A stretch of 64,000 nucleotides of DNA from Rhizobium phaseoli (GTDB lineage Bacteria; Pseudomonadota; Alphaproteobacteria; Rhizobiales; Rhizobiaceae). The notes under the pieces are model-generated. The model was not told the origin of the DNA, ran no database searches, and saw only the letters and a program-made list of their open reading frames with translations. Below are positions 19,862 through 24,084 of the stretch, piece by piece. The stretch is from NCBI RefSeq assembly GCF_010668805.1, contig NZ_WUFT01000008.1, forward strand, positions 1 to 64,000. The letters run 5' to 3'. A program made the translations under genes and the position numbers. Within the stretch, counting starts at the first letter, position 1. Each line of letters starts with the position of its first letter.

Positions 19862-21364
19862 ATGAACAAACGAATCTCCCCTTTGTCGCCGCTCGACATA
19901 TCCTCACCACCCCCTTTCCAGCCGCAGAGCTTTGATGATCCCGCTAAGGCGGTGGAGGCGCTGACGGCGCTTTACGAGCGCAATACGGCGTTCCTGATCA
20001 AGAGCTTCACCGAGCTGGCGCAAGGCGCTCCAATCTCCTCGCGCTACCGTGCCTTCTATCCGCAGGTCAGCATCGAGACGACAAGCTTCGGCCATGTCGA
20101 TTCGCGCCTTTCCTACGGCCATGTCACGGCACCGGGCATCTATACGACGACAGTCACTCGGCCCAAGCTCTTCAAGCACTACTTGAAGGAGCAACTGGCG
20201 CTGCTGTTGAAGAGCCACAATGTTCCGATCATCGTCTCGGAATCGACGACGCCGATCCCCCTGCACTTCGCCTTCGGCGAGGGTGCGCATGTGGAAGCAT
20301 CGACAAACGCCTTCATCGACATTCCGATGCGCGATATTTTCGACACGCCCGACCTCAACACCACCGATGACGAGATCGCCAACGGCGAATATATCCCGCC
20401 GCCGGGAGAGCCCTCGCCGCTTGCGCCGTTCACCGCGCAACGCATCGACTACTCGCTCGCCCGTCTGTCGCATTATACGGCAACGCATGCCGAGCATTTT
20501 CAGAATTTCGTGCTGTTCACGAACTATCAGTTCTATATCGACGAATTCTGCAGCTGGGCACGCAAGCTGATGGCGGAGGGCGGCGACGGCTATACGGCCT
20601 TTGTCGAGCCCGGCAACATCGTTACCCTCCCCGGCTCGAGCGCTCCGGAAACGGATGCCGCGCTTACCCGTCTGCCGCAGATGCCGGCCTACCATCTGAA
20701 GAAGAAGGGCCATGCCGGGATCACCATGATCAATATCGGCGTCGGCCCCTCCAACGCCAAGACGATCACCGACCATGTCGCCGTGCTGCGCCCGCATGCC
20801 TGGTTGATGCTCGGCCATTGCGCCGGTCTTCGCAACAGCCAGCGGCTCGGCGATTATGTGCTTGCCCATGCCTATATGCGTGAGGACCATGTTCTCGACG
20901 ACGACCTGCCGGTCTGGGTACCGATCCCGGCGCTGGCCGAAGTGCAGGTGGCGCTAGAAGCGGCTGTTGCCGAAATCACCGGCTACGAGGGCTTCGAGCT
21001 GAAACGCATCATGCGCACCGGCACCGTCGGCACGATCGACAACCGCAACTGGGAACTGCGCGACCAGCGCGGGCCGGTGAAGCGGCTGTCCCAGGCGCGC
21101 GCAATCGCGCTCGACATGGAATCGGCGACGATCGCCGCCAACGGCTTCCGCTTCCGCGTGCCCTACGGCACGCTGCTCTGCGTCTCCGACAAGCCGCTGC
21201 ACGGCGAATTGAAGCTGCCGGGCATGGCGACAGCCTTCTACCGCACACAGGTCAACCAGCATCTGCAGATCGGCATCCGCGCCGTGCAGAAGCTTGCCGC
21301 CATGCCGACGGAAGCGCTGCATTCGCGCAAACTGCGCAGCTTCTTCGAAACCGCCTTCCAATAG
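19862..21364 (+). CDS. amn: AMP nucleosidase
   Basis: 500 residues, the normal length. The enzyme hydrolyses AMP to adenine and ribose 5-phosphate. The N-terminal AMP-nucleosidase-specific domain includes RYRAFYPQVSIETTSFGHVD, SRLSYGHVTAPGIYTTTVTR and TPIPLHFAFGEG. The C-terminal half is a purine phosphorylase-type fold with VGPSNAKTITDHVAVLRPH, MLGHCAGLRNSQRLGDYVLA and the base-binding ALDMESATIAANGFRFRVPY. The ATG directly follows a consensus -10 (see promoter entry). It is followed by the minus-strand 71-residue membrane protein. Confidence 0.95.
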   Translation: MNKRISPLSPLDISSPPPFQPQSFDDPAKAVEALTALYERNTAFLIKSFTELAQGAPISSRYRAFYPQVSIETTSFGHVDSRLSYGHVTAPGIYTTTVTRPKLFKHYLKEQLALLLKSHNVPIIVSESTTPIPLHFAFGEGAHVEASTNAFIDIPMRDIFDTPDLNTTDDEIANGEYIPPPGEPSPLAPFTAQRIDYSLARLSHYTATHAEHFQNFVLFTNYQFYIDEFCSWARKLMAEGGDGYTAFVEPGNIVTLPGSSAPETDAALTRLPQMPAYHLKKKGHAGITMINIGVGPSNAKTITDHVAVLRPHAWLMLGHCAGLRNSQRLGDYVLAHAYMREDHVLDDDLPVWVPIPALAEVQVALEAAVAEITGYEGFELKRIMRTGTVGTIDNRNWELRDQRGPVKRLSQARAIALDMESATIAANGFRFRVPYGTLLCVSDKPLHGELKLPGMATAFYRTQVNQHLQIGIRAVQKLAAMPTEALHSRKLRSFFETAFQ

Positions 21365-21373
21365 GCGGCTTCC

Positions 21374-21589
21374 TCACCGTCCCGCCACAACAGGTGCCGG
21401 GTGATCCGCAAGCATCTGCGGTCTGCCGGCGGCAAGGTTCAACCCTGCTATCAGCAGGGTGAAGGCGACGAAGGCGAAAGCGACGCGCTGGAGAATCTTC
21501 AGCCCATCGCTTTCGAGGAACTCCAGCTGACGTTTTTCATGGCGGCGTGCCCAGATCTGGCTTGCCAGCGCGATTTCAAGAATGCTCAT
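21374..21589 (-). CDS. 71-residue single-pass membrane protein divergent from the ECF42-type operon
   Basis: It starts MSILEIALASQIWARRHEKR, a charged amphipathic N-terminus, followed by one membrane helix (VAFAFVAFTLLIAGLNLAAG, residues about 37-56) and a short tail. The start at 21589 is fixed by GAGGAGAA upstream; the open frame extends further but is not needed. Its promoter on the minus strand (21624-21650) has the same TGTCGA-N17-CGAC form as that of the DGPF/sigma operon, so it is probably co-regulated. Known ECF42 loci lack an anti-sigma factor. Whether this protein modulates the sigma factor is only a hypothesis. Confidence 0.72.
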   Translation of the reverse strand: MSILEIALASQIWARRHEKRQLEFLESDGLKILQRVAFAFVAFTLLIAGLNLAAGRPQMLADHPAPVVAGR

Positions 21590-21623
21590 TGTCGTTCTCC
21601 TCGACAGGTTTCGATGAAGCCTT

Positions 21624-21650
21624 GTCGAGTGCTGCCTTGCGATTTCGACA
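21624..21650 (-). promoter_or_regulatory. ECF42-type promoter of the 71-residue protein
   Basis: On the minus strand TGTCGA (21645-21650), 17 bp, then CGAC (21624-21627). This agrees with the ECF42 consensus as I recall it (TGTCGA at -35, CGA/TC at -10). Transcription would begin near 21617, about 28 bases before the start codon. Confidence 0.65.
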
Positions 21651-21681
21651 GCCGACCGGCACAAAAGATTTTTTCCGCCGC

Positions 21682-21708
21682 TGTCGAAATGCATGGAGGT
21701 CGTTCGTC
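21682..21708 (+). promoter_or_regulatory. ECF42-type promoter of the DGPF/sigma operon
   Basis: TGTCGA (21682-21687), a 17-bp spacer, then CGTC (21705-21708), oriented toward the first DGPF gene at 21745. Both promoters share TGTCGAAAT. The operon contains the sigma gene, so this implies positive autoregulation. Confidence 0.68.
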
Positions 21709-21744
21709 CAGGAGTATGGAACACGACAAAGGAGGCTGCCTGCG

Positions 21745-22101
21745 ATGAAGTATCTCTGTCAGGTGTGGTTCGACGGCGCGATACTCGACGCCATGACGCA
21801 AGAGGAGAAGGCCGAGCTCGACACCAATTCGTTGAACTACGACAAGGACCTCGCCGAAAGCGGACATATGATCGTCGCCCAGGCGCTGCAGCCCCCGACA
21901 TCGGCGGTCACTGTCCGGGTGCGAGACGGCGACACGTCCGTGACGGACGGTCCCTTCGCCGAGACCAAGGAGGCGCTCGGCGGCTTCATCCTGATCGAGG
22001 CCAAAGATCTCAACGATGCGATCCGCATTGCCGCCGGCATTCCGCTTGCCAAGCTCGGCGCGATCGAGGTGCGGCCCATCCACGAATTCGCAGCTCAATG
22101 A
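21745..22101 (+). CDS. DGPF/YciI-family protein 1
   Basis: 118 residues. A ferredoxin-like alpha/beta fold of the YciI/YCII superfamily with the defining VTDGPFAETKEALGGF motif (residues about 71-86), for which DGPF proteins are named. Such proteins occur with ECF42-type sigma factors and are regarded as their targets; enzymatic activity is unproven. GGAGG (21731-21735) precedes the ATG. First gene of a four-gene operon with a 10-base gap to the next. Confidence 0.9.
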   Translation: MKYLCQVWFDGAILDAMTQEEKAELDTNSLNYDKDLAESGHMIVAQALQPPTSAVTVRVRDGDTSVTDGPFAETKEALGGFILIEAKDLNDAIRIAAGIPLAKLGAIEVRPIHEFAAQ

Positions 22102-22111
22102 GGAGGAACCA

Positions 22112-22471
22112 ATGAAGTTTCTATGCCAGATCTGGTTCGACACCGAAAAAAGCAAGCTGGTCCCTCAGAGCGAATGGGATGCGCTCACACAGGAGTGCAT
22201 CGCCAGCGACAATCGCTGGCGCGAGAGCGGTCATCTACAAGCGGCGTTTGCCTTGCATGAGCCGTCAACGGCGATCACGGTCCGGCTGCACAATGGCGAA
22301 GTCTCCGCGACCGATGGCCCGTTTGCCGAGATCAAAGAACATCTCGGCGGTTTTGTGCTTGTAGAAGCCGAGAACATCGAGGAGGCGAAGACCATCGCGT
22401 CCAGTTTTCCCATCCTCAAATATTGCTCGATCGAAGTGCGTCCGGCCTATTCCATCCAGGATGGGAAATAG
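22112..22471 (+). CDS. DGPF/YciI-family protein 2
   Basis: 119 residues, beginning MKFLCQIWFDTEKSKLVPQ and containing SATDGPFAEIKEHLGGFVLV. It is clearly paralogous to the protein encoded before it: shared Met-Lys-x-Leu-Cys-Gln start, DGPF motif and ending IEVRP. AGGAGG lies eight bases before the ATG. Only two bases separate its stop from the next gene. Function unknown; inferred member of the ECF42-type regulon. Confidence 0.9.
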   Translation: MKFLCQIWFDTEKSKLVPQSEWDALTQECIASDNRWRESGHLQAAFALHEPSTAITVRLHNGEVSATDGPFAEIKEHLGGFVLVEAENIEEAKTIASSFPILKYCSIEVRPAYSIQDGK

Positions 22472-22473
22472 GC

Positions 22474-22833
22474 ATGCGCTACATCTGCCTGATCTACAAT
22501 CGCGCCGATACCGACGGTACGCTGACACCTGATGAAACCGATGACCTCGTCAAGGCGCATTTCGCCTTCGACGAAGAACTGCGCAGCAACGGCATCATGA
22601 TCCATGCCGATGCGCTTGAAATGCCTGACAAGGCGACCGTGCTGCGTGTTCGAGACAACACTCTGTCCGCGACCGACGGTCCGTATGTCGAGACGAAGGA
22701 GCATCTGGCCGGCTTCTACGTTATCGAAGCACCTGATATGGCGACGGCAATAAAGATCGCCGGGCGGATCCCTTCGGCGCGTTTCGGCGCGGTTGAACTC
22801 CGGCCCGTGCGGATGCTGACCCTGCCGGACTGA
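22474..22833 (+). CDS. DGPF/YciI-family protein 3 (DGPY variant)
   Basis: 119 residues, beginning MRYICLIYNRADTDGTLTPD. Its motif reads ATDGPYVETKEHLAGFYVIE, with Tyr replacing the Phe of DGPF. The rest of the fold, including the closing FGAVELRPVRML, matches the two preceding paralogues. It ends nine bases before the sigma gene start and is translationally close-packed with it. Function unknown. Confidence 0.9.
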   Translation: MRYICLIYNRADTDGTLTPDETDDLVKAHFAFDEELRSNGIMIHADALEMPDKATVLRVRDNTLSATDGPYVETKEHLAGFYVIEAPDMATAIKIAGRIPSARFGAVELRPVRMLTLPD

Positions 22834-22842
22834 GGTGCGCCG

Positions 22843-24084
22843 TTGGAAAGCGTGATCGAGGAGATTTATCGAACCCAATCGCGCCGGGTGCTGGCGACGC
22901 TGATCCGCCTGCTCGGGGATTTCGACCGGGCTGAGGAAGCGCTGCACGACGCCTTCGCCGCGGCCGCGCGGACATGGCCGGCCGACGGCATTCCCGGCAA
23001 CCCCTTCGCCTGGCTTGTTTCGACGGGACGTTTCAAGGCGATCGACACGATCCGGCGCCGGGCGCGCTTCGATGCGTCGCAGCATCACATCGAGGACAGC
23101 CTCTACACGCCTGAGGCAACTTACATCGGCGACATGGAACCGATCGAGGACGACCTGCTGCGGCTGATCTTCACCTGCTGCCATCCCGCTATCCCCTCCG
23201 ACGCGCAGACGGCGATGGCGCTTCGGGAAATTTGCGGGCTGACCACCGAAGAGATCGCCCATGCCTTCCTTACTCCCGCACCGACAGTTGCCCAGCGGAT
23301 CGTGCGCGCCAAGAACACGATCCGGGCGGCGAAGATCCCTTACGAGGTGCCGGGCCACGAGGCGCTGCCGCAGCGGCTCGACCAGGTTCTGCACGTCATC
23401 TACCTGGTCTTCAACGAAGGTTATTCCGCCTCTTCTGGCGAAGACGTGGTCCGTGCCGATCTGACCGCAGAGGCGATCCGTCTGGCGCGGCTGCTTCTGA
23501 CGCTGCTGCCGCATCCCGACGTCTCCGGCCTGCTGGCGCTGATGCTGCTGCAGGATTCCCGCCGCACCGCCCGCAGCAGCGAGCGGGGGGCGCTGGTGCT
23601 GCTTGCCGATCAGGACCGCTCGCTCTGGGATCATGCGAAGATTGCGGAAGGTCTGGCGCTGCTTGCCGAAGCAATGAGAACGGGAGAGGTCGGCAGCTAT
23701 ACGCTGCAGGCGGCGATCGCCGCCGAGCACGCCAGGGCGCCTGCTGCCGATGAGACCGACTGGCAGCGGATCGCCTTCTATTACGATCTGCTTCTGACGG
23801 CCCAGCCCTCGCCGATCGTCGAGCTCAACCGCGCCGTGGCGATCGCGATGGCGGAAGGGCCAGCGAAGGGGCTGAAGCTGGTCGATGCCATTCTGGAACG
23901 CCAGGAGCTACAGACCTATCATCTCGCCCATTCGGCGCGCGCCGATTTCCTGCGGCGCCTCGGCCGGAGGCAGGAGGCGATCGCGGCCTATAAAACGGCG
24001 CTGTCGCTTTGCCGGCAGGAGCCGGAGCAGGCATTTCTCAGAAAACGGATTTCAGATCTTGCCACGACGCCCGAGCGGCAGTGA
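22843..24084 (+). CDS. ECF42-type RNA polymerase sigma factor with TPR-like C-terminus
   Basis: 413 residues, more than twice a minimal ECF sigma factor. Residues about 5-75 are sigma region 2 (YRTQSRRVLATLIRLLGDFD, then AEEALHDAFAAAARTWP). Residues about 105-160 are region 4 (ALREICGLTTEEIAHAFLTP, then VAQRIVRAKNTIR). The long C-terminus has a DUF6596-type domain (VLHVIYLVFNEGYSASSGED) and a helical TPR-like end (ARADFLRRLGRRQEAIAAYK). This matches group ECF42, which uses the C-terminal extension instead of an anti-sigma factor. The start is a TTG at 22843 behind GAGGTG; a GTG at 22852 is the alternative. Its last 33 bp overlap the convergent gene. Confidence 0.9.
   Translation: MESVIEEIYRTQSRRVLATLIRLLGDFDRAEEALHDAFAAAARTWPADGIPGNPFAWLVSTGRFKAIDTIRRRARFDASQHHIEDSLYTPEATYIGDMEPIEDDLLRLIFTCCHPAIPSDAQTAMALREICGLTTEEIAHAFLTPAPTVAQRIVRAKNTIRAAKIPYEVPGHEALPQRLDQVLHVIYLVFNEGYSASSGEDVVRADLTAEAIRLARLLLTLLPHPDVSGLLALMLLQDSRRTARSSERGALVLLADQDRSLWDHAKIAEGLALLAEAMRTGEVGSYTLQAAIAAEHARAPAADETDWQRIAFYYDLLLTAQPSPIVELNRAVAIAMAEGPAKGLKLVDAILERQELQTYHLAHSARADFLRRLGRRQEAIAAYKTALSLCRQEPEQAFLRKRISDLATTPERQ

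Follow-up and report, generated by a model that had tools for sequence, protein, structure and literature searches.

Putative divergent ECF42-type promoters between a YCII/DGPF-sigma factor operon and a small membrane protein gene in Rhizobium phaseoli

The locus and its two sites

We analysed a 64,000-nucleotide stretch of Rhizobium phaseoli DNA (contig NZ_WUFT01000008.1, positions 1 to 64,000; hereafter the window), in which a gap of 155 bp (21590-21744) lies between a leftward gene for a 71-residue protein and a rightward operon of three YCII/DGPF-domain genes and a sigma factor gene. The neighbours recognised by Pfam are an AMP nucleosidase (19862-21364) and a lysylphosphatidylglycerol-synthase-type membrane protein. 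The features of the locus are listed below; promoter elements are predictions, and counts refer to the Rhizobium relatives described in the following section.

21374-21589, minus strand: gene for a 71-aa single-helix membrane protein, ATG at 21589 after GAGGAG
21624-21627, minus strand: putative -10 element CGAC (TCGAC with the last spacer base); CGAC in 50 of the 51 relatives whose spacing is 17 bp
21645-21650, minus strand: putative -35 element TGTCGA (TGTCGAAA); GTCGA[AT] in 52 of 52
21663-21674, no strand: A/T tract AAAAGATTTTTT, flanked by the two -35 elements, read from the sequence
21682-21687, plus strand: putative -35 element TGTCGA, kept in 52 of 52 relatives
21705-21708, plus strand: putative -10 element CGTC; CGTC in 51 of 52, CGAC in one (L051)
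21745-22101, plus strand: first YCII/DGPF-domain protein, 118 aa (PF03795, E = 4.4e-23)
22112-22471, plus strand: second YCII/DGPF-domain protein, 119 aa (PF03795, E = 4.1e-14 on the longer reading 22106-22468)
22474-22833, plus strand: third YCII-domain protein, 119 aa, with DGPY replacing DGPF (PF03795, E = 9.6e-19 on 22477-22830)
22843-24084, plus strand: ECF42-type sigma factor, 413 aa, putative TTG start (PF04542, PF08281, PF20239)

Two or three YCII/DGPF genes also occur in several relatives.

ECF42 factors have DGPF genes as neighbours and a promoter consensus of TGTCGA (-35) and CGA/TC (-10). An earlier note on this DNA had placed a sigma gene of this kind last in the operon, and the Pfam domains bear out both its position and its architecture. 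The protein has sigma regions 2 and 4 only (PF04542 and PF08281, both above cut-off), followed by a C-terminal extension with DUF6596 at residues 178-278 (E = 1.9e-37) and TPR-type matches at residues 361-396, the latter below the Pfam gathering scores and with TPR_2 counted as one stretch. Three PF03795 genes lie directly upstream of the sigma gene, and the predicted promoters have a TGTCGA-type -35 element, a CGA/TC -10 element and a spacing of 17 bp. A C-terminal extension of about 200 residues with TPR repeats is given as an ECF42 criterion in the available text of PMC8999054.

The two sites that had been proposed for the gap are both present: on the plus strand, TGTCGA (21682-21687) is followed after 17 bp by CGTC (21705-21708), and on the minus strand TGTCGA (21650-21645) is followed after the same interval by CGAC (21627-21624). 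Both start with TGTCGAAAT in the window sequence. By analogy with SMc01149 of Sinorhizobium meliloti (PMC6180224, available text), the rightward start site would be expected about 9 nt past CGTC, and the A/T tract between the two -35 elements is possibly a shared UP-type element. The minus site also forms an inverted repeat, TGTCGA-N16-TCGACA, in the window. Over 21601-21650, TCGACA/TGTCGA elements alternate in orientation every 22 bp (21601, 21623 and 21645).

The pattern TGTCGA-N17-CGWC occurs three times in the 64-kb window, each time inside the gap 21590-21744, the third match (plus strand, 21623-21649) arising from the inverted repeat that the minus site forms. Shuffled windows gave a mean of 0.44 matches per 64 kb, or about 0.0009 for the gap, and the Poisson probability of at least two sites there is about 4e-7, a post hoc figure, uncorrected for how many gaps the window contains. 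When the genome was searched (6.6 Mb, 168 contigs), TGTCGAAAT-N14-CGWC matched three times, twice in the gap (reversed-pattern control, 0), and TGTCGAWW-N14-TCGWC, a pattern picked after the relatives' sequences had been viewed, matched four times, likewise twice in the gap (control, 0). Two other genome matches were rejected as regulon members: C53:173010 (L009), which by its orientation sits within a 441-aa transporter-like frame, and C135:300069 (L192), which sits within a 399-aa frame.

Conservation of the two sites in Rhizobium

Among the 60 Rhizobium genomes searched, the operon was present in 52 and absent from eight. Orthologues of the first YCII protein (E <= 1.7e-47 in the carriers) and of the sigma factor (E <= 3.3e-176) were found in the same 52 genomes; six of the eight operon-less genomes contained distant copies only, and two contained none. 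The upstream gap was read in all 52 carriers. The earlier note had proposed that related genomes be scanned for both motifs in the same gap, a lack of conservation being among its refuting outcomes, and both were conserved there: the plus site, as TGTCGA-N17-CG[AT]C, in 52 of 52 gaps, and the minus site, as NGTCGA[AT]-N17-CGA[CT], in 51 of 52, the single exception being L028 with its 16-bp spacer. The full TGTCGA at the minus -35 position was found in 44 of the 51 gaps with 17-bp spacing, and in 7 of the 51 the first T has been lost, which, like the L028 spacer, tells against the promoter reading. Boxes were kept while spacers diverged, as evidenced by the mean information content: at the plus site the boxes have 1.99 bits per base and the spacer 0.85, and at the minus site the values are 1.89 and 0.68 bits per base. 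Ungapped identity over the upstream 150 bp was set aside because indels distort it, and some of the observed conservation is due to the common descent of the genomes.

Apart from two gaps with 43 and 42 bp, the interval from one -35 element to the other, which contains the A/T tract, measured 28-34 bp. The two -10 boxes were consistently unlike each other, with CGTC rightward and CGAC leftward (gaps of L012-L063), a contrast that perhaps reflects different strength or selectivity.

A third site and the sigma factor that may read all three

A third TGTCGA-N17-CGTC site (TGTCGATTTTCGCATCCGCCGATCGTC) lies on another contig (C32:179987-180013, L191), 52 bp upstream of a DUF899 gene (PF05988, E = 3.2e-63). 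Close orthologues of this gene (at least 73% identity), unlinked to the operon, were found in 35 of the 60 genomes, comprising 35 of the 52 operon carriers and none of the eight operon-less genomes; the chance of the latter result is about 4e-4 if relatedness is ignored. All 35 close orthologues have NGTCGA-N17-CG[AT][CT] upstream, 32 with TGTCGA and three lacking only its first T, and the -10 forms are CGTC, CGTT or CGAC. No match to this motif was obtained in 3148 random 250-bp slices, which overlap and come from 30 of the 35 loci. In the genome group L215-L220 the -10 form at the DUF899 site is CGTT, and three of these genomes also lack the first T of TGTCGA at the minus site. Distant DUF899 copies (50-53%) carry TGTCGA-N17-CGTC in five of seven cases when they come from operon carriers; thus the motif reaches beyond a single set of orthologues.

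We infer that these sites are promoters and that the window's sigma factor reads them, from which positive autoregulation would follow. In our judgement it is highly probable that the gap is a divergent ECF42-type promoter region, read by the operon's own sigma factor and driving both the operon and the small protein. RNA polymerase with the ECF42-like sigma factor (22843-24084) would start rightward at the plus site and transcribe the three YCII/DGPF genes together with the sigma gene, while the same holoenzyme would start leftward at the minus site and transcribe the gene for the small single-helix membrane protein. The third site, of the same type and on the other contig, would drive the DUF899 gene, a probable further member of the regulon.

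The genome encodes three ECF sigma factors of the DUF6596 (ECF42) type, and this number by itself lends something to the improbable alternative that the sites are ECF42 promoters read mainly by, or shared with, another paralogue, in which case cross-regulation and not autoregulation would be at work. The paralogous YCII-sigma operon on contig C85 has TGTCGG-N17-CGTC (L223:2384-2410) 22 bp before its YCII gene, a promoter that differs by a single -35 base, and in S. meliloti over-expression of the ECF42 factor RpoE10 failed to raise SMc01151, which heads that factor's own operon (PMC6180224, available text); both facts could likewise be taken to favour cross-regulation. The adjacent sigma factor is nevertheless indicated, since TGTCGA stands at the window's operon whereas the other two ECF42 operons have TGTCGG (C85, where a divergent site is absent upstream) or no recognisable site of the TGTCGA/TGTCGG-N17 type (C113). 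The distant DUF899 copies from operon-less genomes that keep another ECF42 factor also argue against cross-regulation, in small numbers: TGTCGA-N17 was found in none of four and TGTCGG-N17-CGTC in two of four, a result that would be predicted if the final base of the -35 element follows the sigma factor present. The simplest reading is that the window's factor would read TGTCGA and the C85 factor TGTCGG, a reading with few operons behind it; it offers the hypothesis that a single base (A or G ending the -35 element) keeps the ECF42 paralogues of a cell separate.

The consensus that the earlier note had given for ECF42 promoters is backed by the three promoters listed for RpoE10 in Table 1 of PMC6180224, all of which are TGTCGG-N17-CGTC. 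According to the available text of that paper, over-expression of RpoE10 raised SMc01149-SMc01148 and SMb20475-SMb20474, and the motif at the factor's own operon overlaps the mapped start site; like the absence of an effect on SMc01151, this speaks against autoregulation. The window's factor resembles RpoE10 in its TPR-type C-terminal extension and in having a YCII-type gene ahead of its sigma gene, and its sites have the same layout and the same 17-bp spacing as the RpoE10 promoters; unlike these, they end the -35 element with A where S. meliloti has G. The TGTCGG site of the C85 paralogue resembles the RpoE10 promoters in sequence. A divergent small membrane protein and a DUF899 target go unmentioned in the account of RpoE10, as far as the available text of PMC6180224 extends.

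It is very improbable that the TGTCGA/TCGACA elements serve a dimeric repressor or activator as binding sites instead of being promoter elements. Such operators would suit the inverted repeat at the minus site and the recurrence of the elements every 22 bp at 21601, 21623 and 21645, but just 30 of 51 gaps retain the full inverted repeat, versus 50 of 51 for the -10 CGAC, on which ground a palindromic operator was rejected, and the distances to the start codons and Shine-Dalgarno-like sequences suit promoters. Moreover, CGTC stands at the plus -10 position in 51 of 52 gaps, so that conservation takes a different form at each of the two sites, which also argues against operators.

The small membrane protein and its possible role

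The 71-aa protein comprises an amphipathic N-terminal part of cytoplasmic type, a hydrophobic stretch at residues ~36-54 and a short tail, and the AlphaFold2 model is one long helix over residues 3-54 (mean pLDDT 73; 92-93 over residues 31-50). No Pfam or NCBIfam family matched it above cut-off. A small frame lies past the minus site in 51 of the 52 gaps, usually about 28-35 bp beyond the -10 element; the remaining gap is on a contig that breaks off within the beginning of the gene. The encoded proteins are 54-76 residues long, each with one hydrophobic segment (best 19-residue mean at least 1.59, 50 tested); their identity to the window's copy is 19-93%, and three positions are invariant. Approximate pN/pS, calculated over single-change codons in 16 close copies of equal length, was 0.24, and the codons look to be under selection. 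On the strength of this ratio and of the conservation in 51 of 52 gaps, the 71-residue frame that the earlier note had taken for a protein gene is very probably one. It is scarcely credible that the minus site is a promoter followed by a frame without a functional protein: fast divergence (down to 19% identity) and the lack of a family match in Pfam and NCBIfam would fit that reading, but the frame with its hydrophobic segment follows the site in every gap except the one cut by a contig end, and the low pN/pS of the close copies opposes it as well.

A profile of the small proteins (A1), for which 50 of the 52 genus proteins were used, matched 51 of the 52 operon-carrying genomes versus none of the eight others. 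In those 50 genomes the matches exist by construction, because their proteins built the profile, and the independent results are thus G035, in which a match was found, and the operon-less genomes, in which none was found.

It is common among ECF systems for the sigma factor to drive both its own operon and a divergent target. The present pair differs from divergent ECF promoters in general in that its -10 forms are unlike each other, CGTC for the rightward and CGAC for the leftward site, and in that the leftward gene is unnamed. No description of the divergent pair was found in a literature search that covered few subscription papers. The arrangement described here is an ECF42 operon with a conserved, predicted divergent promoter and an unnamed small membrane protein behind it.

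The ECF42 factors of Streptomyces venezuelae and ECF-10 of Pseudomonas putida are non-canonical factors whose TPR extension is essential, and the available text of PMC8999054 describes ECF42 factors as widespread, with no anti-sigma factor and no interaction partner identified. The window's factor is like these in being an ECF sigma factor with a TPR-type extension; unlike theirs, its system has three YCII/DGPF genes and a divergent, co-conserved small membrane protein. There is a low but appreciable probability that this protein is more than a mere target and is the missing membrane partner of the ECF42 factor. The twin promoter would yield it in step with the sigma factor, and by contacting the TPR extension or the YCII/DGPF proteins it would link the activity of the sigma factor to the envelope. 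If this were true, fast-evolving small proteins, co-inherited with the Rhizobium operon, would supply the interaction partner that has been missing from studies of ECF42. The promoter pair and the unlinked DUF899 site would make up a compact, testable regulon that includes a concrete candidate for such a partner.

Beyond the genus, loci were scored for a divergent gene, defined as a minus-strand GTCGA[AT]-N16-CGA[CT] ahead of a frame of 40-100 aa that has both a hydrophobic segment and a Shine-Dalgarno-like sequence. Such a gene was found in 50 of the 52 genus gaps and at eight of 24 first-YCII loci from other Rhizobiaceae genera. The second copies L189 and L190 were excluded from the family count. 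Among the best 80 named loci of a capped listing, such a gene was found at 10 of the 11 from Rhizobium and at none of the 69 others, and of 23 loci from the order two had it, one of the same genus and one doubtful. The small-protein family itself is seen in several other Rhizobiaceae genera too. A family-wide search with the small-protein profile scored part of the candidates in most genomes, and seven of its eight matches outside the genus were discarded as chance, having no YCII neighbour (G195 excepted). In other families of the order, two loci have a GFA-family gene behind the minus site instead (L233:1993-2406 and L236:940-1350). The divergent site thus predates the small protein or moves more readily than it does, and this favours the protein as a target of the sigma factor and disfavours it as an essential regulator.
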